Part shown: positions 27,391 through 58,204 of the stretch, piece after piece
How the letters are laid out: every line of letters begins with the position of its first letter
Numbering within the stretch: position 1 is the first letter of the stretch
Assembly (NCBI RefSeq): GCF_018446385.1
Contig: NC_056000.1
Span: forward strand, 77,634,688 to 77,698,687
DNA length: 64,000 nucleotides
Source: Zingiber officinale
Lineage: Eukaryota > Streptophyta > Magnoliopsida > Zingiberales > Zingiberaceae
Reading direction: 5' to 3'
Notes under the pieces: model-generated
The model's database searches: none
What the model was told of the DNA's origin: nothing
What the model saw: only the letters and a program-made list of their open reading frames with translations
Made by a program: the position numbers and the translations under genes

Positions 27391-27898
27391 AATTGAGAAG
27401 ACTCTTTGTCACTACACTATTGCCTCAGGGTCAAAAAAATTATGGATTTTTTTTATAGTTGGTACCAGGTATCTAGCTTACGCGACTAATCCTGGGGTGA
27501 TTGACCTAACCCCAAGGAACTTTTCTACATGCCATCAAGGTAAATCGCGAAGTGCTCACAACAGACGGCTCATCAGCCTAACGTTCTTAGGTTAACCACC
27601 CATTAAGGAAAATTCATTTATTAATTTGCCAAGCATGAGACTTGATTCTTAGATGTTTGGGAAATTGAGAATGTGCTCTACCATTGCACCATTGCTCAGA
27701 GGAAAAGATAAAAATTATGGATTCTTTTTAGTTTCACTAGGTATTCAGCTTACATCAATTAATCTTGGGATGACAGAGCTATTCCAATGAAAATTTCCCA
27801 CCAACTACTATGGTAAATAGGGAAGTGCTCGCAGTGGACGACCCATTAACCTAGTGTCCTTAGGTCAACCGACCATTAAGGAAAATTTATTCATTAAA
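27391..27898 (+). repeat. Degenerate tandem duplication, ~270 bp period
   Basis: 27,391-27,624 and 27,662-27,898 align end to end: both begin aattgagaa, share attatggatt, then ggtaaat.ggaagtgctc, and end accattaaggaaaatt(c/t)att.attaa. Divergence is high, so the duplication is old. Confidence 0.75.
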
Positions 27899-27988: not shown

Positions 27989-28901
27989 GTTGGTGCAATC
28001 GACTTCCAGAGTTTCGATGTTTAACAATATATTTAATGGAACTTAGTCAAGGTTGACCTAGTCAAGTGAGAAGTCTAGTCAGGTCAAGATTGACCAGATG
28101 ACTGGCAAGTGGTGAGTAGTCTATTGAGTGACTGTAAGTGGTGGATAGTCTACCAAGTAACTGCAAGTGATGAGTAGTCTATCTAGTGACTGCAATGGTG
28201 AGTAATCTACCAAGTGACTAGCAAGTCCAAGCAAGTTAAGGTGGCATGATGCTTGATAAGAGGAAAAACACTAGGGGGAGGTAACCCTAGGTCTTGAAGG
28301 AGTGAACTCCAAGTAAAAGTCCTAGTGAGTGAAGTTAGGCCCTAGTGAGTGAAGTTAGGTGGAGAAAGTCCTGGTGAGTGAAGCTAGATTCTAGTGAGTG
28401 AAGTTAGATAGTGAAATTCCTTGTGAGTGAAGTTAGACTCTAGTGAGTGAAGTTAGGTGGTGAAAGTCCTGGTGAGTAAAGCCAAATAATGGAAAATCTT
28501 AGGAGGAGGTTGTTGGTGCAATCGACTCTAGAGTTTTCATATTTATTTGATGGAGTCTCGTCAGGTCAAGATTGATCGGATGATTAGCAAAGGTGAGAAG
28601 TCTACCAAGGGAAGTCCTAGTTATGGCTAAGCAAGGAAAATTTTGGCAGATTGTGGAAACTAGGTATAATTCAATAGATCTGGAGGACCCGATATCTCGA
28701 ACCCCTAGAGAGTCAATCCAATGCTGAGTTCTGGTGAATGAAGCCAGGTGGTGAAAAACCTAGGAGGAGGTAACCGTAGGTCCTGATGAGTGAAGCAGAT
28801 GGTGAAAGCCTTAGGGGAGTTAACCTTAGATCCTAGTGAGTGAAGCTATATGGTGAAAACCCTAGCCGAAGTTAACCCTAGGTCCTAGTGAGTAAAGCCC
28901 G
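27989..28901 (+). repeat. Two truncated SIRE-like LTR starts with gtgagtgaag repeats
   Basis: The sequence tgttggtgcaatcgac occurs at 27,989 and again at 28,511, each followed by aggtcaagattgaccagatg-like text. Between them are many degenerate units of the form gaaagtcctggtgagtgaag with ccaggtggt-type links. These are partial 5' LTR ends of the family seen at 34,300, 43,606 and 61,691 (reverse). A hairpin unit lies at about 28,073-28,103. Confidence 0.6.
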
Positions 28902-34239: not shown

Positions 34240-34815
34240 CCTAAATAGAGGTTAGGCAAGGGCAACTCCAATGAGAAGGTTGGCAGAAGAAGAAAATCCA
34301 AGTGGGTCAGTGTTGACCAGACACTTGGTGTGAAAGTCCTGGTGAGTGAAGCCATCAGTTGGAAAGTCCCAGTAAGTGAAGTCGACCAATTGAGAAAGTC
34401 CTGGTGAGTGAAGCCAGATAGTTGGAAAATTCTGGTGAGTGAAACTAGGTGAAAGCCTTAGTGAGTGAAGCTAGGTAGATGAAAATCTTGGTGAGTGAAG
34501 TCAGGTGAAAGTTCTAGTGAGTGAAGCTCGATAGATGAAAATCCTGGTGAGTAAAGACAGGTGAAAAACCCTAGTGAGTGAAGCTAAGTAGTGAGGAAAC
34601 CTGGTGAGTGAAGCCAGGTGGTGAAAATACATGGTGAATGAAGTCAGGCTTATGGAAATCTATGTGGGTCAAGGTTGACGGGACACTTGATGGTTGGAAG
34701 TCCAAGTGGGTCATGGGGGACTGAAACTTGGCACGATACAATAAGTCCAAGTGGATCATGGTGGACCAGATGCTTGGCACGAGACGGTAAGTCCAAGTGG
34801 GTCAAAATTGACCAA
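34240..34815 (+). repeat. SIRE-like LTR fragment with hairpin and gtgagtgaag units
   Basis: About twelve degenerate gaaa(g/a)tcctggtgagtgaagc units (34,320-34,650) are flanked by hairpin units of the family described at 56,026. One is at about 34,299-34,329 (arms ccaagtg/cacttgg) and others are at about 34,702-34,800. Confidence 0.7.
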
Positions 34816-37548: not shown

Positions 37549-38896
37549 TGTAGGACCGTAAATACTTTAGAGGGGGGATAGTGATCTCTAGAAAATCGAG
37601 AGTTAAAATGAATTACGTAGCGGAAAAATGAAAATAAAGCACAATGCTAACAAAATTAAGTTTTACTTGGTTCAGAGCCTTCGACGACTCTTACTCCAAG
37701 GTCCGTACTCGTCGAGTACTTTCGTTGACAAATCCACTAATAGTTCGCAAAAGTATTACAAAATTAAGTACAAGAACTAAAAGCAAAGTTACCGACAACA
37801 AAGAAAATAAGAACGTCTTAATCGTCGGTTGTCGGAGAAGCTTCACAGCGTCGTAGGAGCTTTTTCGAAGCACTGAGCAAGAGAGAAACTTGTAGTAGTT
37901 GTTGTTCTGAAGCTCCTGATCGAATGTCTTTATATAGGTCCACTTCGGCCACCTGGAACCCCTCCGGGCACCTGGACCTTTGCTGACGTGGCAAGTTCTC
38001 TTCGAAACTTCATCTGCGAAGTTTATCCACCTCCGAGCGCCTAGAGCGTTGATGTGGGCTCGGCTAGTCGACGTGCTCCAACTTAGCTTCAGGATAAAGT
38101 ATTAGGGTCCAGGCGCCTGCACCGACTCCGGGTGCCTGGACCACCTAGACTCTCCTTTTCGGGTCCAAGCACCCGGGTGAGCTTGGTCCGGGGGCCCGGA
38201 CTCGGGGCACCCGGATCCCTTCCAGGTGCTTGGACTCCAAGCGCCCGGACTCCGGCACCCGGATCCCTTCCGAGCGCCCGGACTTCGAGCACCCGGATCC
38301 CTTCCGGGGGTCCGGACTCTCCTTTTTTTAGCATCCTGTAAAAAAGTTAGTTCGGACAATAGAAAATATATTTTACCCTGCAACAGAGAGTTAGTACACC
38401 ATAATAAAGTATTAGTAGTAATTAAATCTCATCTCCTCGAGACCAGGATCTAGTCAAAGTCTCAACTTAGGTTTCTCAAATGGAACCTAAGTTGGACTGA
38501 CGCCTACAGTTTCCTCAACCGGGAACGCGTTCTATCTGGATCTCTCCTTAAGTTGCTTACCTTCACTTACCAACTGTAATCATTTGACTTGTCTTTGACC
38601 CACCAGGTCTTTCCGCCAGTTGTCAGGTCAATGGACCCAACTAGACTTCGGTCGATTGTCAAGTCGTGCAGATCCAATCTGACTTCCCGCCAGATATCGA
38701 GCCCCACAGACCTATCTGGACTTCCCACCAACTATTGGGTCCCTCAGACCTAGTTGGATTTCAGCCTGGTGTCAGGTCTTTCAGACCAGTCAACTCCTAC
38801 ACACTTGGTAAAGAGTTTAAATCACAAAATACTCTAACTTTAAGTAACTTATCATTTATCAAAATCTGGATTAAATTATTAGTGTAAATTGTACGA
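37549..38896 (-). repeat. SIRE-like LTR, minus orientation
   Basis: Reading the minus strand from 38,896: the LTR start (homologous to 55,920), a set of hairpin units (38,757-38,600), a GC palindrome cluster with cgcccgga-type units (38,325-38,100), then the conserved 3' module with tccttggagtaagagtcg-like text and gaaccaagtaaa (37,705-37,665), ending at TACA (37,549). No internal domain adjoins it and I see no TSD. Possibly a solo LTR. Confidence 0.65.
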
Positions 38897-39736
38897 ATAA
38901 TTTTATCTCAGAAGAAGTCTCCTGACCTCACGGAAAAGTAATATAAGAAGACATTTAACGAGGCAATTGCAGTTTTGGTATGTTCATTCGTATGCTCTTT
39001 CACTTCACCGCTTCTTGTTCAATACTACATCAATCTGATTTCGACTATAGTTAAAGCTTATTTTGAGTCAAACTCAGCTATCTTGCTTTAACAAAGGCCT
39101 TTGATGATAAAACTAATTCAAAGGTGTTATCAAAGCTAACAAGAGTTTTTCCTAAAGCAACTCCTCCAACAATGCCAACTATGACAACTCGTGTTCCGGT
39201 GAAATAGAGAAACAATACCATAAGAGATATTTCTGGTATACTTCCTAAATGGATCTTCGTGCACTCTCAACTAGTGCAGCCAAATATAATTCAGTGATGC
39301 AAACTCATAGGTTATGATTCCAAACTCATTTAAATTGTTCATTTTGGCTTTTGAAGGCACCCTAGTTTGCCAGCAATCATTGACGTCATTGAAAATTTTA
39401 ATACAGGACCTTCCAATATTAACTTTAAATCCTCCGTATCTCCGAAACCTTCCTTGAATTTGGTCAATGATATTGTACGGAATCTGAGTCAGACGAAGAT
39501 CGATAGAAATGATGTTGGCATTGACAGAGAGACAGCTCTAGGGTTGGCATGGGAAGTATCCGACGGTCGAACTTGTGTTTTGATTATGTCAAAGGATTCA
39601 AAGTTAAGGTATTTTGTTATTTGATATGTTGAATGAGTATTATAGGAAAGTCCTAAGATTTCTTAGGCAAAAGTCCTAGCTGCGATTAGGTAAGTGGAAA
39701 ACCCTAGGGGTGGTAACTCTAAGTCCTAGGGGGTGG
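38692..39736 (+). repeat. ~1.05 kb duplicated segment, copy A
   Basis: Near-identical to 42,747-43,797. It begins inside a hairpin unit of the minus-strand LTR, covers the rest of that LTR and the unknown exon-like sequence, and ends 192 bp into a plus-strand SIRE-like LTR (39,545-39,736). The main difference from copy B is a 6 bp indel near 39,205. Confidence 0.9.
39090..39624 (+). pseudogene. Unidentified exon-like coding fragments (copy A)
   Basis: An open stretch reading KAFDDKTNSKVLSKLTRVFP and KATPPTMPTMTTRVP (about 39,095-39,210) is followed, after a stop in this copy, by RNNTIRDISGILPKWIF. A second open segment, 39,367-39,624, reads MPAIIDVIENFNTGPSNINF, then LNLVNDIVRNLSQTKIDRND and ETALGLAWEVS, and runs into the LTR at 39,545. 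The composition looks like a real protein, but I cannot name the family. It may be a host gene truncated by the LTR, or captured exons. Confidence 0.35.
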
Positions 39737-42746: not shown

Positions 42747-43797
42747 AGATATCGAGCCCCACAGACCTATCTGGACTTCCCACCAACTATTGGGTCCCTC
42801 AGACCTAGTTGGATTTCAGCCTGGTGTCAGGTCTTTCAGACCAGTCAACTCCTACACACTTGGTAAAGAGTTTAAATCACAAAATACTCTAACTTTAAGT
42901 AACTTATCATTTATCAAAATCTGGATTAAATTATTAGTGTAAATTGTACGAATAATTTTATCTCAGAAGAAGTCTCCTGACCTCACGGAAAAGTAATATA
43001 AGAAGACATTTAACGAGGCAATTGCAGTTTTGGTATGTTCATTCGTATGCTCTTTCACTTCACCGCTTCTTGTTCAATACTACATCAATCTGATTTCGAC
43101 TATAGTTAAAGCTTATTTTGAGTCAAACTCAGCTATCTTGCTTTAACAAAGGCCTTTGATGATAAAACTAATTCAAAGGTGTTATCAAAGCTAACAAGAG
43201 TTTTTCCTAAAGCAACTCCTCCAACAATGCCAACTATGACAACTCGTGTTCCAGGAAATAGTCAGCAAAGAAACAATACCATAAGAGATATTTCTGGTAT
43301 ACTTCCTAAATGGATCTTCAGGCACTCTCAACTAGTGCAGCCAAATATAATTCAGTGATGCAAACTCATAGGTTATGATTCCAAACTCATTTAAATTGTT
43401 CATTTTGGCTTTTGAAGGCACCCTAGTTTGCCAGCAATCATTGACGTCATTGAAAATTTTAATACAGGACCTTCCAATATTAACTTTAAATCCTCCGTAT
43501 CTCCGAAACCTTCCTTGAATTTGGTCAATGATATTGTACGGAATCTGAGTCAGACGAAGATCGATAGAAATGATGTTGGCATTGACAGAGAGACAGCTCT
43601 AGGGTTGGCATGGGAAGTATCCGACGGTCGAACTTGTGTTTTGATTATGTCAAAGGATTCAAAGTTAAGGTATTTTGTTATTTGATATGTTGAATGAGTA
43701 TTATAGGAAAGTCCTAAGATTTCTTAGGCAAAAGTCCTAGCTGCGATTAGGTAAGTGGAAAACCCTAGGGGTGGTAACTCTAAGTCCTAGGGGGTGG
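42747..43797 (+). repeat. ~1.05 kb duplicated segment, copy B
   Basis: Copy of 38,692-39,736. It runs without a break into the complete SIRE-like 5' LTR that starts at 43,606. In this copy the exon-like text keeps the frame through NSQQRNNTIRDISGILPKWI (43,250-43,310), and the 85-codon segment 43,428-43,685 is unchanged. Confidence 0.9.
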
Positions 43798-44901
43798 TAA
43801 CCCTAGGCTGAAAGTCTTGGTGGGTCTATGCTTCGGGCAAAAATCCTAGGGGGCGGCAACTCTAGGTTAAAATCCTAGTGTCGCGAACTAGGTGGAAGTC
43901 TGGACGGGTCATGGACCGGACGTCCAGCATGAAGACCGGAAGCATCGGACGCTAAACAAAAGTCCAGTCGATCTGGAGGACCGAACTGACAAACAGGTAT
44001 ACTTCTCCTGAGTGGAGTAGGTGAGGGTGCGTTCCCCGGAAGAGGGAACAGTAGGCGTTGGTTCGACCTAGGGTTTCTGGTTGGAAATCCGAAGTCAGAA
44101 CCGGACAGCCCGAAGGTTGTCAAACATTTCATTTATTATGTTTATTATGTGCTAATTTTGTGCTGTAGGGTATTTTTGGGACTAACATATCTTGCAGGAA
44201 CTAAAACACAAAGCTTGTCTCGGATGAACAGTACCCGAGGCGCCCTCCATGGAGCTTGGAGGCGCCTCGGGTGCAAGACAGGAGTTGGTTGCGAAGAGGA
44301 ATTGGAGGCACCCTCAAGAGAACTTGAGGCGCCCTGGACTATTGGTTGAAGGCGCCTTGAACTGGTGATGAAGGCGCCTCCAGGCAGATAAACAGCAGTG
44401 ACTCAAAGGCTTATCGCAGCGGTCAACTCGGGATAGAATTTTGGTTTGAGGCGCCTCCATGGAGCATTGGAGGCCCTCAATGGCCAATAAAAGGACATCT
44501 TGACCAGCAGCTAGATACATCAATTCAAAAGCGATCTTTCTGCAACCAGCTGCTAACGAGAAGTTCCGACGAAACTACAACTTGACGCCGACGACCCAGA
44601 GCTCAGAATTTATCATTTCTCTTGTCGTTGGTATACTTAATTATTGTATTTAATTGTATTTTAAATTGTAACACTTTAACAATATTATAGTTGTTGCCCA
44701 CTGAAAGCGATCAACAATCGTGGGCCTTGGAGTAGGAGTCGTCCTAGGCTCCGAACCAAGTAAATCTTGGTGTCCTTGTTTTGTGTGTGTGTGTTTGTTT
44801 TTCTTATTCTGCTGTGCATTTACTCGTACGTTTTTCGATTACAAAATGCGTGAAAGCCACGAGCGCTATTCACCCCCCTCTAGCGTGGTCTCAATCCAGC
44901 A
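43606..44901 (+). repeat. 5' LTR of the SIRE-like element
   Basis: Begins tggcatgggaag and ends ctcaatccagca. In order: ccctagg.ggtggtaa repeats (43,760-43,880), hairpin units (43,900-43,927 and about 43,962), a GGCGCC palindrome cluster (44,233-44,480), then the module ggccttggagtaggagtcg with ctccgaaccaagtaaa (44,722-44,764). The pair at 48,411-49,685 has the same order. Confidence 0.85.
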
Positions 44902-48410: not shown

Positions 48411-49685
48411 TGATGTGGGAAGCATCCGACGATCAAACCTGTGTTTTGATTATGTCAAAGGGTTCAAAGTTAATATGTTTTATTATTTGATATATTGAAT
48501 GAGTGTTGCAGGAAAGTCCTAAGGTTTCTTAGGCAAAAGTCCTGACTGCGGTTATGCAAGTGGAAAACCCTAGGGGTGGTAACCCTAGATCCTAGGGGGT
48601 GGTAATCTTAGGCGGAAAGTCTTGGCGGGTCTAAGCTTCGGGCAAAAATCCTAGGGGGCAGCAACCCTAGGTTGAAATCCTGATGTTACAAACCAGGTGG
48701 AAGTTTGGACGGGTCATGGACCGGACGCCCAACATGAAGACCGGAAGTATCAGACACTAAGCAAATGTTCAGTCGGTCTGGAGGACCGAACTGGCAAACA
48801 GGTATACTTCTCCTGAGTGGAGTAGGTGAGGACGCATTCCCCGGAAGAGGGAATAGTAGGCCTCGGTTCGACCTAGGGTTTCAGGTTGGAAATCCGAAGT
48901 CAGAAGAGGACAACTTGAAGGTTGTCAAACATTTCACTTATTATGTTTATTATGTGCTAACTTTGTGCTGTAGGGTATTTTTGGGACTAACATATCTTGC
49001 AGGTACTAAAACACAAAGCTTGCTTCGGATGAACAGTACCCGAGGCACCCTCCATGGAACTTAGAGGCGCCTCGGGTGCAAGGCAGGAGTTGGCCGCGAA
49101 GAGAAGTTGGAGGCGCCCTAGACTGCTGGTTGAAGGCGCCTTGGACTGGTGATGAAGGCGCCTCTAGGCGGATAAACAGCATAGACTCAAAGGCTTATTG
49201 CAGCGGTCAACTCGGGATAGAATTTTAGTTTGAGGTGCCTCCATGGAGCATTGGAGGCACCCTCAATGGCCAATAAAAAGACATCTCGACCAGCAGCTAG
49301 ATACATCAATTCAAAAGCGATCTTTTTACAACCAGCTGCTAACAAGAAGTTCTGACGAAGCTACAACTTGACGCCGACGACTCGAAGCTCAGAATTTGCC
49401 ATTTCTCTTGTCGTTGGTATACTTAATTACTGTATTTAATTGTATTTTAAATTGTAACACTTTAACGATATTATAGTTGTTCCCCATCAAAAGCGATCAA
49501 CGATCGCGGGCCTTGGAGTAGGAGTCGCCCTAGGCTCCGAACCAAGTAAATCTTGGTGTCCTTGTTTTGTATGTGTGTTTGTTTTTCTTATTCCGCTGTG
49601 TATTTACTCGTACAATTTTCGATTACAAAACGCGTGAAAGCCACGAGCACTATTCACCCCTCTCTAGCGCGGTCTCGATCCAACA
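48411..49685 (+). repeat. 3' LTR of the SIRE-like element
   Basis: Partner of 43,606-44,901. It starts tgatgtgggaag and ends tcgatccaaca, with clear divergence from the 5' copy (point changes and a deletion in the palindrome cluster at about 49,108), so this is an older insertion than the copia element at position 30. Confidence 0.85.
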
Positions 49686-51634
49686 TGGGGTGCCCCATGT
49701 ACTGGTGCCGGGAAAAGAGGAACCTCGCGTGGAGCTTCTTCCCCTCCCCGAGTCTGCAAAAGGAGCGCGGATGGTACCTTCCCTCTGCACACATTTAGAC
49801 AAACACCCGCAGCGTTAGAGACTAGAAACTAGGGAAAATGTCCCTGGCACAGGTCCTCCGACGCTCAAGTCAGGTTTTTTTCCCCCGAAAAAGTAGTGAA
49901 CGAAGAAAAAAGTACTGTAAAAGATGAGTGCGTAAGTGTGCGTAGCGTTCTACGTAAGAGAGAGGGCCTTCCTTTTTATATGATGCTGCATACCTCTAGA
50001 GCCTGACTGTTGCCAGGGAATGTCAAGTGTCAGGGTTTGTCGAGTGAGAGAGAAGATGTACGGAGGCCTCCCATTAGTGAGAGGAAGGTTCCTCTCTCAG
50101 AGAATGGCAAACCACTGGAATATTCACTGATGCATGACAGTTATTCTCTGACAGGCGGTTGCGATTCCCTGACACTGTAGTCTTTTAGTGTTGTTCGTCC
50201 CGCCCGAGTTCGGTCAGGGACAGCTCGGGCTGATCACTTAGATGTATCACCAGGACTGGCTCCGGACGCAAAGGCTGAGGCGTTATGACCTGATCGGGTT
50301 TCATATGAGACTGTAGCGGGAAACCCCTTATGTATGTTGTGACCTTTAAAGAGTCGGTCAGGAGCTATCTGAGTGGGAGTGTCGAGACCCTCTGTAAAAC
50401 CTAAGCCAGGGGGAACTGGTTCCCGGTCGAGAAGCCCGACATGGCTGCGTCCGACTTGGTATTACATGTTTGGTGAGGCAGGGCGGTCTAACTCCTGCAT
50501 TCTCTGGACCGTTGATTGCCACGACATCTTGACTTCTGACCACCATGTCACCTTGACATTTGACTATCACGTGACCTTGACTGCCACCTCGCTTTGACTC
50601 TTGACTGCCATGTCCTCTTGACTCCTGACCTTCTGACCCCATGGGATCCCTCCTTTACACACCGCATCACAAGCCTCCCCCCAAGTATAGTCGAAGGAGG
50701 CTCAAGTCTGACTGACTAGACCCTGGCGTGCTTGTGGCTTGACCTGTATACAAGGGATTGGAAAGGAGCTGATCGCTTTTCCACAAAGTGAATCTTGCAT
50801 TACTGTTATCGCGTCACAACGCTCGTGCTTGGGGCGTGAGGCTGCCATACCGACCGGAGGTCGTTGGTCGCAAGAGCAGACTCGCTTATAACTCGCACTG
50901 GGACGAGAGTTTGAAACGTTGACCAAGAGGTCGTTGGGCGCGAGAGCATGCTCGCTTATAACTCGCACTGGGATAAGAGTCTAGAAAACCCGACTAAGAG
51001 GTCGTTGGTCGCGAGAGCATGCTTGCTTATAACTCGCACTGGGGCGAGAGTCTGGAGCGTGAGAGCAAGCTCACTTATAACTTGCACTGGGGCGAGAGTC
51101 TGAAGCATGAGAGCAAACTCACTTATAACTCGCATTGGGGTGAGAGTATGGAAAAATCGACAGGGAGGTCGTTGGCAGTGAAAGCAAGCTCACTTATAAC
51201 TCGCGCTGGGGTGAGAGTCTGAAAAATCGACCGAGAGGTCGTTGGTCGCGAGAGCATGCTCGCTTATAACTCGCACTGGGGCGAGAGTCTGGGACACCGA
51301 CCAGGAGGTCGTTGGGCACAAGAGCATGCTCGCTTATAACTTACACTAGGGCGAGAGTCTAGAAATCCGACCGGGAGGTCGTTGGTCGCGAGAGCATGCT
51401 CTCTTATAACTCACACTGGGGTGAGAGTCTGAAAATCTGACCGGGAGGTCGTTGGTCACGAGAGCATGCTCGCTTATAACTCGCACTAGGATGAGAGTCT
51501 GGGGCACCGACCAGGAGATCGTTGGATGTGAGAGCATGCTTGCTTATAACTCGCACTAGGGCAAGAGTCTGGAAATCCAACCGGGAGGTCGTTGGATGCA
51601 AGAGCAGGCTTGCTTATAACTCACACTGGGACGA
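49686..51634 (-). repeat. LTR of a minus-strand Tat-type gypsy element (proximal part)
   Basis: Minus-strand reading ends ...ggcacccca at 49,686. A minus-strand TATA (catataaaaagg) lies at about 49,972-49,983 with a leader below it, and upstream (higher coordinates) is the tandem array at 50,820-51,634. The array resumes at 57,299, so this LTR once ran on to about 57,700-58,100. Confidence 0.5.
50820..51634 (-). repeat. ~70 bp tandem array, left part
   Basis: About eleven units of roughly 70 bp plus some shorter ~55 bp units. Each has ggaggtcgttgg, then gcgagagcatgctcgc and cttataactcgcactggggcg. The centre gagcatgctc is a perfect 10 bp palindrome in most units. The array is interrupted at 51,635 and continues at 57,299. 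Confidence 0.9.
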
Positions 51635-53560: not shown

Positions 53561-55919
53561 TTTTAAAATTAAGATACTTAAGCTAATTAAAACTTTAAAA
53601 CTTAAACTAAAAACTTTAAAATTAAAGTTAAAAATTAATTTTAAATTAAATTAAAACTTAACATTAAAGTTAAACTTAATTTAAATTTAAAGCTTAAAAT
53701 TTAAACTTAATTTAAAATTTAGAATTAAAATTAAACTTAAATCATTTTAAAAATTATATTAAAAATCCTTTTTACTTAAAAAAAAATTATTATTTTTAAC
53801 TTAAATCTTTTAAATTAAGTTTTTCTTAAAAATTAGTTTAAAAAGTCATTGTAATTCAAAAGGCAAACTTAAAGTTAAAATAAAATATTATTATATAATA
53901 ATAAACCCTAAACCCTAAATTCAAAATTACATTAAAATATTTGAACTAAATATAAACTTAATGACATTATTAACAAATAATTAAAATTTGATTAACTTAA
54001 GATCATAAATTTAATAATGGAAGTACAGACTTCATAAATTAACTGTGATCTAAATTAGATGTGACCTTATATTAAACAGTTAATTAATGCTTAACCTTAA
54101 TTTAACTCAATAAATCTTAATTTTATTGTTAATCAAAATATAATTAAATCATAATTTATCATTATTAACGATTGATTCAAATTGAACCTTAACTATGTTT
54201 AACAACGTTAATAAATTTAACGTCGAATTAATGTTAACTTTAAACTAAGTTAATTCTACTTAAAAGGAAGTAAATGAATAGTTAAAATTATAACTAGTGC
54301 GTTCATTAAATCAACTCAATCAATTAATACGAAATTTAAATTATTTTAATAAGTATTAAATTATTGAATCAAGTAAAATTTAATCGATAAATTATTGATA
54401 ATGATAAATTATTATTGAATTAATAAAAAATTATCTTATTTAATCTTAAACCAGAGTTTAAGGACCTGAATCTAAAATTAATTAATTTTAGAATAATTGA
54501 TTAATTTAACTTAAATAAACAATTATACCAAGTATATAGAGATACTTATGTAAATAAAAAGGTGTTAAGGCTTTGAACATTAAACCTTAGTGTTAACTTA
54601 ATAGGGAGAAATAAATTAAAGAGGGTAATAAAGTCAAGGGAAGTATCAAATTCAAGGGGAGGAATTAATTAAATATATATTTTTCCTTTATTAAAAATAA
54701 TTTAATTTATTTTTTAAAAATGTTGAAGAAGTGCTTCAAGTTCAAACCTAGTTTGAAAAATTAAATATATAGTTTTCCTTTATTAAAAATAACTTAATTT
54801 GACTTGAAAATTACACGTTTGCCTTTATAAAACTTATAATATTTTAAACTTGCAAAAAAACTTCTTTTTAAAAATTTGATCAATTCTACAAAGCTTACCT
54901 TTATATTTTTATACAAAACTATTTTTCAAAATCATCTTACTAAAGTTGGATTTACTTAAAAAATTATGTCAGGTTCAGGGGGAGAATTAATTAATTTCAT
55001 ACTTATTCTTCCTTCATTCTGAAATTAGTTTTGTGAAAATATTTTCTTAAAAATATTTTCAATGTTTTTGAAAAATCTAACTTATTTTTGGAAATCTAAT
55101 TTGATATATCTATGTTTGAAAACTAGCTTTTATAAAACTAAGCTTTCAAATTGAATTTTATGAATTAGGTTTTTGAAAATTGAATCTTTTGCAAACTTAG
55201 TCTTAATTAGTTTTGAAAAGTAGATTTTTAAAACTTAATTTTGAAATTTTGAAAACTCATTGTTTCAAAGTTGCAACTTATTTTGAAAATTTAAACCTTG
55301 AGTTTGAAATTTTGGTTTTGAAAACTCAAGTTTGAAAAGCGTTTCAAAGTTGAAACTTATTTTGAAAAATCTACACCTTGATCTTAAAACTTTGATTATG
55401 AAAAACTCATGTTTGTAAAGCGTTCCAAGTTGAAACTTATTTTATAAATTTAATTTCTTGAAATTTGGAACTTAAAAACTCATGTTTGAAAATGAGACTA
55501 TCTAAACTTAACTTCCCTAAACTTATACTTGAAAATTAGCTTTTAAAAACTTCCTCTTTAAGTTTGCAAATTCATTTAATTTTGTAAAAATTATCTTTAA
55601 AAAAATTACTCAAAATATACTAAGTTATGTTGCTAAAGTAGCTACCTTTCAAAACTTAGTTATGTTTTAAAACTCCCCTAAGTTAACTTGACATCATTTC
55701 TTAAATTTTTTTTTTACTTTGTTTGTACTCTATATTGTTGATTATGTCCTTATTTGATGAATGCTAAAGGGGGAGGGATAGGTGGTTAAGTTAGAGCAAC
55801 TAAATGTAAATTTGAAAAACTAACTTAAAACCCTAAAAACTTCAAAAATCATGCTTGATTTTTGCATATATTTTAACTAACTTAACCAGGTTGTCATTCC
55901 ATCAAAAAGGGGGAGATTT

Positions 55920-57079
55920 TGGTGCGGTTAGCACTAACGGTCTAACTCAGGTTTTGATGAATGACAAATTAGGTTAAGTTAGGTTTGTCGCTATCTAACA
56001 CTCTGATTGAGTGTGCAAGCTAAGTCCAGACAGGTCGATGGGCTGACCGGATGTCTGGCACAAAGTCCAAGCGGGTCGATGGGCTGACCAGACTCTTGGC
56101 GAGAAGTCCAAGCGGGTCAACGGGCTGACCGAACGCTTGGCACGAATTCCAAATGGGTTGAAGGGCTAACCGAACATTTGGCAGGAATTCCAGCTAGGTC
56201 GACGGGCTGACCAGATAGCTGGCGAGAAGTCCAGACGGGTCGAAGGGCTGACCGGACGTCTGGCAGGAGAGTAAAGGTAAGTCACTGGAAGGGAGTGACT
56301 GTGAGGACGCGTTCCCAGGAAGGGAACATTAGGTGTCGATCCGGCTTAGATCCATTTCGGATATCTAAGTCGAGATCGTGACTAGATTCCGGTCTCGGAA
56401 AGATGGAATTTAAGTTATACTCTTGATATTGAATTTATAAAACTGTGTTAACACTTTGTTTTGCAGGAAACATATTATATATTTGCCTCGGACTAATCTT
56501 GTCTTGTAGGAGAAGGAATCTCTGGAGAAAGGTGGTCCAGGCACTCGAAACAGGTCCGGGCGCCCGAAACAGGTCCGGGCGCCCGGGAGGCAACTTTATC
56601 CTGATCGCGTTGTCGCCACGTGGAGCTCGCTGGTTGAACCTGCCATGTCTCACCAGGGCGCTCGGAAGGGATCCGGGGCGCCCCGAGCCTCATATAAAAG
56701 GAGAGTTAGAGGTGGAGCCTCAAGATAACAACTAACAAGAAGATCTTCTACTGCTTGCTCTGTTGCTCTGCACTCCTGCGACGCTAACAAAGCTCCGACA
56801 ACGCACTTTTTCCTTTTCAATTTATTCCTTTGTCAGTATTGCTTTTATTTTTATTAGCATTTTCTATACCTAGTTTGTAATAATTTTTGAATTGCTAGTG
56901 ATTGCCCACCGAAAGCACTCAACGAGTGCGGGCCTTGGAGTAGGAGTCGACACAGGCTCCGAACCAAGTAAAATTGGTCTGTGTTAGCATTGCTTACTTT
57001 TTCCGCTGCGCTTAACTCTTTTCAAAGAATTTTCGTAATCGATATTCACCCCCCTCTATCGAAACATCACGATCCAACA
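55920..57079 (+). repeat. 3' LTR of the SIRE-like element
   Basis: Starts tggtgcggttagcac after a polypurine tract and ends cacgatccaaca. In order: six 41 bp hairpin units (56,026-56,271), a cgggcgcccg palindrome cluster (about 56,540-56,690), a tataaaag TATA at about 56,693-56,700, and the conserved ggccttggagtaggagtcg / ggctccgaaccaagtaaa module (56,931-56,972). Confidence 0.85.
56026..56271 (+). repeat. Six 41 bp units, each a 33 bp hairpin with covarying arms
   Basis: Hairpins at 56026-56058, 56067-56099, 56108-56140, 56149-56181, 56190-56222 and 56231-56263. Arms: ccagaca/tgtctgg, ccaagcg/ctcttgg (one mismatch), ccaagcg/cgcttgg, ccaaatg/catttgg, ccagcta/tagctgg, ccagacg/cgtctgg. Inside the arms a second stem ggt(c/t)...(g/a)acc encloses the loop. 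Arms change between units, but pairing is kept. Confidence 0.95.
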
Positions 57080-57298
57080 ATTTGTTTCTTTCCATCTTAG
57101 TCGTGAGCTACTATTTATAATTTATAAGGAATTGATAACATGATTTTCTGTATGTGACACCACACACCATGTTATCTACAATATAAATTAATTGAATAAC
57201 TACACTTAGCATATAAATGTAGACATTTGACCAATGTGATTCTTTATTTTAAAATAAAATGTTTATAAAAAGCTAGGCTTTTAGTATACACTCTAACA

Positions 57299-57640
57299 TA
57301 CGAGAGCCTGGAAATCCAACCGAGAGGTCGTTGGTCGCGAGAGCAGGCTCGCTTATAATTCATACTAGGGCGAGAGTCTGGAGCATGAGAGCAAGCTCAC
57401 TTATAATTCGCACTGGGGTGAGATTCTGGAAATCCTGACCGGGAGGTCGTTGGTCATGAGAGCATGCTCACTTATAACTCGTACTGGGACGAGAGTCTGG
57501 AGCGTGAGAACAAGCTTACTTATAACTCGCACTAAGGCGAAAGTCTGAAAAATCGACCGAGAGGTCGTTGGGTATGAGAGCAGACTCGCTTTTATCTCGT
57601 ACAGGGACGAGAGTTTGGAAACCCAATCGGGAGGTGAACA
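57299..57640 (-). repeat. ~70 bp tandem array, right part
   Basis: Continuation of the 50,820-51,634 array after the nested insertions. The same ggaggtcgttgg.cgcgagagca and cttataactcgcactggg phrases recur about five times. Confidence 0.9.
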
Positions 57641-58204
57641 AAAGAGAGCATGCCTGTGGACTTACCTTCCGTGGCCTTTTTCCCCCCTTACGCTCCTCCT
57701 CAAAGATGAGGCTTTGGTTCAATTTGAATCTGGAACTATCTTCGAGGTAGAATAGGAGGCGCCAAATTGATTGTTATTTCTTGTCGCCTTCCACTTCTCT
57801 TCCCAAGGTGACTGAATGGAATTGTTGTTCTCCGAGGCATGGTGGCTGTGTCTCCATATCGCCTTCATAATTTCCCTGTCTCTTCCATCATAAATGTCAC
57901 TTCATAAGAAGCCGCCACTTGTCTAGATGACCTCCTTTGATATGATGCCTAACGCACGCCTTTTGCACGGGACTCGATAATGCTCTCCTTGCAGTGATTC
58001 GACCACCCACCTTTGCAGCACCCCTTTTGATTGTCTGGCTCACATCTCGATGCCCCTTCGTGGTTTTAGTTTAAAACCCTAAAGGCGTAAGGCGGTTGCT
58101 CACCGAAACTTCTTCTCCTTCAACCTTCATCTCTCCTGCCTCCGTGCGTGTTTCTTTCGTAAGTGCTCTTCTCCCTTTCTCCTTGTGCTTATGTCTCTTG
58201 GATT
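57641..58204 (+). promoter_or_regulatory. Distal LTR end and leader of the plus-strand gene
   Basis: Unique-looking sequence between the array and the ATG at 58,205. Pyrimidine-rich text with aaaccctaaaggcg (about 58,076) resembles the 5' leader of an aORF. The LTR boundary is not resolved. Confidence 0.35.

Follow-up and report, generated by a model that had tools for sequence, protein, structure and literature searches.

Tandem hairpin units with variable but complementary arms in a predicted Sirevirus LTR of ginger

The window, the whole 64,000-nucleotide stretch of ginger DNA that was analysed, carried a tandem array in which each unit was an inverted repeat able to form a hairpin, with a near-constant GGTC/GACC core and 3-nt 3′ bulge and with outer arms that were variable yet complementary. 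By its sequence marks, the array was assigned as the row of palindromes in the U3 of an LTR from a Sirevirus (SIRE/Maximus-type Copia). The arms covaried between units and between LTR families, and this covariation was real and mostly historical. Selection on hairpin-forming U3 palindromes in transposing lineages is our first choice of explanation, and we give it slightly better than an even chance. It is suspected that palindromes in plant LTRs drive transcription and also feed silencing by small RNAs. Arms that vary while their pairing is kept, in about 64,700 countable units of a two-haplotype assembly, separate structure from sequence, and the arrays let one ask whether the element or its polymerase preserves structure or sequence. 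They also offer a large natural data set on which to test whether template switching gives rise to compensatory change.

Structure of the hairpin array

The array occupied positions 56022..56267 of the forward strand and consisted of six units with an exact 41-bp period, starting at 56022, 56063, 56104, 56145, 56186, and 56227 as read in the window; it was also found by TRF. Each unit contained a 33-nt core in which a 7-nt arm, GGTC, an 8-nt loop, GACC, a 3-nt bulge, and the second 7-nt arm followed one another from 5′ to 3′. The arms on the forward strand were CCAGACA/TGTCTGG in unit 1 (56026..56058), CCAAGCG/CTCTTGG in unit 2 (56067..56099), CCAAGCG/CGCTTGG in unit 3 (56108..56140), CCAAATG/CATTTGG in unit 4 (56149..56181), CCAGCTA/TAGCTGG in unit 5 (56190..56222), and CCAGACG/CGTCTGG in unit 6 (56231..56263). 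All of these paired at 7/7 positions except those of unit 2 (6/7), whose mismatch was absent from the other copies compared in the query-like set. In total, 41 of 42 arm positions were Watson-Crick paired. Re-pairing the arms among the six units gave a mean of 29.3 pairs, and 41 pairs were reached in only 2 of 720 permutations, namely the actual order and an exchange of units 2 and 3, whose 5′ arms were the same. The inner stem was GGTC/GACC in five of the six units and GGTT/AACC in unit 4, where both sides had changed and pairing was intact. Since six other unit-4 copies in the query-like set were without this double change, it was taken as private to the window copy. The bulge, which was GGA, AGA, or GAA in the window units, lay on the 3′ side between the inner stem and the arm. 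The original prediction had described six units at an exact 41-bp period with a 33-bp inverted repeat in each, five perfect arm pairs out of six despite the change in sequence, and an inner stem kept in nearly every unit, all inside an LTR, and these points were confirmed. A search of 55000-58000 against Rfam gave a single match, with an E value of 0.97, that was under its cut-off and outside the array.

Setting of the array in the LTR

The LTR containing the array was read from its junction as the 1162-bp 3′ LTR of a putative Sirevirus-type Copia element (~55918..57079, forward strand), starting with TT and ending with CA. Among its relatives (40 similar places scored out of 7,358 candidates in the genome), the LTRs of loci L014 and L017 started with TG, whereas the window copy started with TT, with AT present between the polypurine tract (PPT) and the LTR. 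Sireviruses have AT after the PPT and then an LTR that begins with TG. The PPT, AGGGGGAG, stood at the junction (55908..55915, forward strand), and further AGGGGGAG tracts were found upstream of the LTR at 54977 and 55768, which is the repeated PPT of Sireviruses. The junction alignment also revealed the PPT-flanking inverted repeat known from Sireviruses; it was about 31 nt long, with the left arm at 55877..55907 and the right arm at 55952..55982 of the forward strand, 34 bp into the LTR. In the cited part of PMC2829016, the length of this repeat and its distance into the LTR each average 28 bp.

A TATAAAA sequence (56693..56699, forward strand) lay downstream of the array, as the TATA box of Sireviruses lies downstream of the palindromes, and was two thirds into the LTR; in the Sireviruses described in the same part of PMC2829016 it is at about the middle. 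By analogy with that LTR organisation, TATAAAA is likely to be the promoter TATA box, and its position downstream placed the array in U3. CACCCCC near the end of the LTR (57047..57053, forward strand) was taken as the poly-C integrase signal, by analogy with the signal named in PMC2829016, as far as cited here. Multiple PPTs, the PPT inverted repeat, the TATA box, and the poly-C signal are listed as non-coding marks of Sireviruses in the portion of Bousios 2010 (PMC2829016) used here. The LTR held another cluster of palindromes, made up of three GGGCGCCC sequences (56558..56565 on the forward strand, and further at 56577 and 56676) that lay downstream of the hairpin array and shortly before the TATA box. 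Related 70/71-bp tandem arrays flanked the LTR-bearing stretch at 50845-51632 and 57300-57640, as though an insertion had divided a single array.

The coding order was read from locus L100 on contig C1, a copy other than that of the window. Integrase preceded reverse transcriptase there (rve 187-283, RVT_2 522-765), which is the Copia order; this coding stretch was flanked by two array-bearing LTRs with unlike arrays, which may come from different elements. In the internal pieces L098 and L099, the longest frames had no match in Pfam. A copia gag match (PF14223) was found in a neighboring element.

Pairing of arm types across the genome

A pattern that fixed the core of the array family and was blind to the arms had 44,490 exact matches genome-wide and 0 with the reversed control, and an arm-blind pattern with loops of 2-7 nt had 20,245 matches against 3 in its control; the assembly holds both haplotypes, and many of these matches may be allelic. 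From each pattern 100 matches were listed, all on contig C1. Among the matches listed, 84 of 100 from the same-core pattern were perfect at the four free pairs, and 79 of 100 from the short-loop pattern were perfect. When arm types were counted instead of copies, in shuffles that take no account of relatedness, the 21 distinct arm pairs among the matches listed from the same-core pattern showed 64 of 84 positions paired against 37.9 in shuffled arms, with none of 20,000 shuffles as good. The 27 distinct arm pairs among the matches listed from the short-loop pattern gave 87 of 108 against 53.5, again with 0/20,000 as good. Counted by distinct arm type, compensatory change at several pairs was thus above shuffled controls.

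The census of arm types covered 442 units at 80 loci, drawn from the query-like set and from a C1 sample taken from 40 of the 41 clusters among the matches listed for the same-core pattern. Every arm type with at least 10 copies was perfect (5/5 in the query-like set and 4/4 in the C1 sample), and perfect pairing among the rarer types was found in 0/60 and 5/69, respectively. The frequent types differed from one another by up to four adjacent pairs. They numbered about a dozen, so the independent compensation events were few. Five arm types formed a small set of inherited founders, and the copies therefore do not represent thousands of independent compensations. One arm pair, position 4 of the AGTG type, occurred in four states, with 79 A-T, 14 G-C, 3 G.U, and 4 A.C pairs among the matches listed (100 of 5,559). 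The unit CCTRGCA/TGCYAGG had 2,633 matches, and 44 of the 100 among the matches listed had a G.U pair, which was linked to a loop change and marked a successful wobble subfamily; neither the A.C form nor the compensated G-C form, which the pattern allowed, occurred among these 100 of 2,633.

The same layout in other LTR families

The layout of a 7-bp arm, a GGTC/GACC stem, a loop, and a 3-nt 3′ bulge was common to other LTR families. In one of them, sampled in loci L101-L130, a single array held as many as five different arm pairs, all perfect, and the perfect pairs included TCAAGTA/TACTTGA, CCAGATG/CATCTGG, CCAAGTA/TACTTGG, CCAAGTG/CACTTGG, CCTAGCA/TGCTAGG, and ACCAACA/TGTTGGT. The loop length of these units varied, and the inner stem was mostly GGTC/GACC or GATC/GATC. 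The unit list of these loci kept at least 5/7 arm pairs and few inner-stem forms and thus shows the variety of the arms rather than a test of pairing; some of the loci overlap, and the copy counts there are non-independent. Two mismatched forms, CCTAGCT/TGCTAGG (T.T) and CCTAGCA/TGCGAGG (A.G), recurred at several of the loci.

Pairing was tested with the arms ignored. With a 3-nt 3′ bulge, stems of at least 6/7 were formed by 12 of the 48 inner palindromes in the window and by 122 of the 296 in L101-L130, whereas the six other bulge lengths summed gave 3 and 11; both strands were scanned, and about half of each total was the wrong strand by design. Ten bulge-0 cases were CCTGATC-like repeats of a different kind. 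For the distinct arm pairs of L101-L130 at bulge 3, 284 of 581 positions were paired against 154.8 in shuffled arms, and 0/5,000 shuffles were as good.

A structure scan of the window gave 10 matches on the forward strand, five of them in the array, and five on the reverse strand, compared with 0.05 per shuffled window for one strand (20 mononucleotide shuffles). On the forward strand, copies of the layout were present in other repeats at 28075..28105 (CTAGTCA/TGACTGG, 6/7) and 34298..34328 (CCAAGTG/CACTTGG), in an LTR-like stretch at 43900..43927 (CTGGACG/CGTCCAG), and in its partner stretch at 48705..48732 (TTGGACG/CGCCCAA, 6/7). On the reverse strand, the copy at 38728..38757 (CCAACTA/TAGTTGG) was the first of several units with differing arms, the same unit occurred again at 42783..42812 in a 99% identical duplicate, and another copy lay at 38616..38644 (CTAGTTG/CAACTGG, 6/7). 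Three further matches, at 27856 (forward), 62899 (reverse), and 56260 (reverse), had other bulge lengths.

The two LTR-like copies, at 43611-44901 and 48416-49685, were 89% identical and enclosed a copia gag stretch, and their hairpin arms differed on both sides. The 99% identical duplicate comprised 38692-39736 and 42747-43797. The reverse strand at 38.6-38.8 kb held several units, with the arms CCAACTA/TAGTTGG, CCAGATA/TATCTGG, and CTAGTTG/CAACTGG. Arrays with a TGAGTGAAG loop and short arms (CCTGG/CCAGG or CCTAG/CTAGG) at 28320-28900 and 34340-34640 seemed to covary by eye, but they were rejected as a covarying case, with 69 of 105 pairs against 64.3 in shuffled arms and 1,018 of 10,000 shuffles as good.

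Decay of single copies and turnover of units

Compared with the nearest frequent type, the arm changes in the local sample were mostly one-sided, with 81 G.U, 81 A.C, and 47 other changes; 11 of the 442 units were dropped from this count as too distant from every frequent type. Both arms had changed in 15 of 3,017 cells, compared with an expected 4.7, and 13 of the 15 were paired. For one arm pair genome-wide, there were 588 G.U and 371 A.C forms and 38 compensated doubles against ~16 expected, the latter calculated with a wild type of ~13,800 that was estimated from 31 of 100 among the matches listed. A modest excess of doubles is expected from unequal copy ages. Single copies decayed almost independently, mostly one arm at a time, a pattern that calls neither for frequent correction in situ nor for selection acting on individual copies. 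Paired frequent types together with the near-independent decay of copies imply that it was in transposing lineages that pairing was maintained or restored. The covarying arms of the original prediction were supported between units, between LTR families, and in the arm-blind samples, but not as a continuing property of each copy, since within copies the changes were mostly one-sided and nearly independent. The picture it had set against itself, in which the arms change independently and mismatches are as frequent as in shuffled units, was found at the copy level for the independence of the changes, whereas the mismatch rate was far below that of shuffled arms.

Ten LTR-pair-like locus pairs with 36 units showed 12 one-sided and 4 two-sided arm differences. 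Three of the four two-sided differences arose from unlike units set together (L070/L071 and L089/L090). The fourth was compensated: in L068/L069, a GCTA/TAGC unit stood opposite ACTA/TAGT, with 35 mismatches in 975 aligned bases. The arrays of these two loci were unlike and may not come from one insertion, and as a single case with doubtful pairing it left our weighing of the explanations unchanged.

Turnover proceeded by whole units, and the arrays differed by whole units. The commoner arrays had GACA as the first unit (GCTA if GACA was missing) and GACG as the last, with the middle units reshuffled. Arm hybrids were flagged in 9 of 405 assignable units; six of these were read as point changes, and three were true hybrids. 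The unit number changes fast after insertion, since L087 and L088, an apparent single insertion with 8 mismatches in 1,036 aligned bases, had 6 and 5 units.

Strand evidence on the folded molecule

G.U pairs exceeded A.C pairs at two inner arm sites (588 against 371, ratio 1.58; 347 against 218, ratio 1.59), and neighbors at LTR-pair spacing shared the G.U state 11 times and the A.C state 4 times per 200 among the matches listed (p = 0.067). The two forms were even elsewhere, with 81/81 in the local sample and 3/4 at position 4 of the AGTG type among the matches listed. Mutational strand bias alone was rejected as the cause of the 1.59 excess, as the ratio of C-to-T to G-to-A rates was 0.87 outside the array and 1.10 inside it (39 copies). 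The excess was nevertheless given no weight because arm positions 1-2 leaned the opposite way (23 G.U against 43 A.C in 39 copies).

Folding favored the antisense strand for the native pairs. The mean native arm-pair probability was 0.425 for antisense and 0.226 for sense in 68 arrays, and 0.829 and 0.571 in 26 further arrays, with antisense favored in 61/68 and 25/26; the 68 arrays were those of 79 loci with at least 4 units inside 420 bp, and the 26 came from 29 loci. The energy per base was lower on the sense strand. The folding z of the window array was -2.24 for sense and -4.37 for antisense. The strand evidence is therefore conflicting, and the folded form may be RNA of either strand or extruded DNA.

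Explanations for the kept pairing

If selection acted on hairpin-forming U3 palindromes, the array would be a U3 cis element whose foldable units, in RNA or extruded DNA, were favored in transposing lineages; paired arm variants would then be those amplified, to tens of thousands of units. The array would likely take part in transcription control upstream of the TATA box, and its cost may be that it gives rise to siRNA, a proposal made for the Sireviruses of maize in the cited portions of PMC5311732 and PMC10760457. This reading was favored by the pairing in the arm-blind samples, the perfect frequent types, the preference for a 3-nt bulge, and the U3 position. It was weakened by the spread of imperfect variants as well (the G.U, T.T, and A.G forms), and selection on sense RNA fits poorly because the native hairpins were likelier in antisense RNA.

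The main rival to selection is templated copying, and both ideas had been raised in the original prediction. In templated copying, a template switch by the polymerase within the hairpin would let one arm be copied from its partner, restoring complementarity in a single step without any selection, and we regard it as possible, with a chance well short of even. The switch would take place at retrotransposition or host replication, and silent copies, being rarely affected, would decay freely. Perfect frequent types beside decaying copies fit such a process tied to the transposition cycle, one switch could account for the up to four adjacent pairs by which frequent types differ, and the mechanism itself is documented in the cited part of Monttinen and Loytynoja 2022 (PMC8794818). 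The compensated unit of L068/L069, one of the ten LTR-pair-like pairs, also fits, but the two arrays are unlike and perhaps not one insertion. Each such switch would need to end at the 7-nt arm, as the bulge and the asymmetric loop stayed unconverted while the arm and the inner stem changed. Moreover, doubles were rare in the copies (38 against ~16 expected), which argues against frequent chromosomal correction, and mismatched and G.U lineages persisted. A doubtful further proposal is that the array is a self-correcting U3 hairpin minisatellite, in which an arm-confined intramolecular template switch in each retrotransposition cycle would make pairing inherited by mechanism, not by selection; new arms would arise already complementary around the conserved GGTC/GACC stem and the 3-nt bulge.

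It is improbable, in our view, that the dyad is the binding site of a dimeric transcription factor and that the pairing of the arms follows incidentally from its symmetry. The inner TTGACC presumably resembles a W-box. The outer arms paired despite their sequence change, for which sequence recognition has no need, and the 3-nt bulge makes the dyad asymmetric. The inner stem of L101-L130, mostly GGTC/GACC or GATC/GATC beside arms that vary more, agrees weakly with a protein site, since few inner forms were allowed in that scan and the core was fixed by the pattern genome-wide. The array does lie in U3, and the published motifs in the cited part of PMC2829016 are dyad-symmetric, with GGTC/GACC in those of Osr10, Osr8, and Vitis. 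A dyad site defined by sequence only thus explains the core, not the arms. Finally, it is very improbable that CpG/CHG deamination on both arms and tandem shuffling of units mimicked compensation by chance: several arm differences are C-to-T/G-to-A pairs, and arrays differ by whole units with few arm hybrids (9/405 flagged, 3 true), but independent decay yields few doubles, non-transition changes are present among the frequent and cross-family arms, which are paired, and the shuffle tests of the arm-blind samples disfavor it.

Comparison with known systems

The original prediction that no such arrays had been described was too strong, since palindromic repeated motifs of Sireviruses and palindrome clusters in maize are both published, as the cited parts of these sources show. 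Searches of open-licence papers turned up no description of covarying arms around a fixed bulge, which is weak evidence of absence. The nearest systems were the RM boxes of Sirevirus LTRs, palindromic repeated motifs located upstream of the TATA box (Bousios 2010, PMC2829016, in the part cited). According to the same part, they number at least 8 copies per element, counted over the LTR plus the linker, and the GGTC/GACC core is present in the motifs of Osr10, Osr8, and Vitis. The ginger array resembles them as so described, with dyad-symmetric units in high copy, six here, in the upstream portion of the LTR, ahead of the TATA box. It starts ~104 bp into the LTR, compared with 200-400 bp for the RM boxes in that account. 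The CGG-CCG signature, which is found there in 12 of 13 published RM motifs, with Tnd-1 lacking it, was absent from the ginger array, whose core was RGGTC...GACC; the array is thus said to work like an RM array and is not filed as a published motif.

The palindrome clusters of maize Sirevirus LTRs, as reported in the portions of PMC5311732 and PMC10760457 that cite Bousios 2016 Genome Res, lie in the regulatory part of the LTR, as in ginger, and are sequence-variable, rapidly evolving, and rich in small RNA. These portions give one most abundant consensus, CACCGGACNNNGTCCGGTG, and make no mention of covarying arms, whereas the ginger arms covary. Template-switch mutations, according to the cited part of PMC8794818, create and maintain hairpins and produce a multi-base compensatory change in one event, in RNA genes and during DNA replication; in the ginger array no certain event was caught, and the bulge and loop were unconverted. 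Compared with the RM boxes in the cited account, the ginger units are longer (33 nt) and have a loop, an outer arm that varies and is yet complementary, and a fixed 3-nt 3′ bulge. Rows of palindromes are therefore known in the Sirevirus group, and it is the matched changes of the arms around a constant core and bulge that look new.
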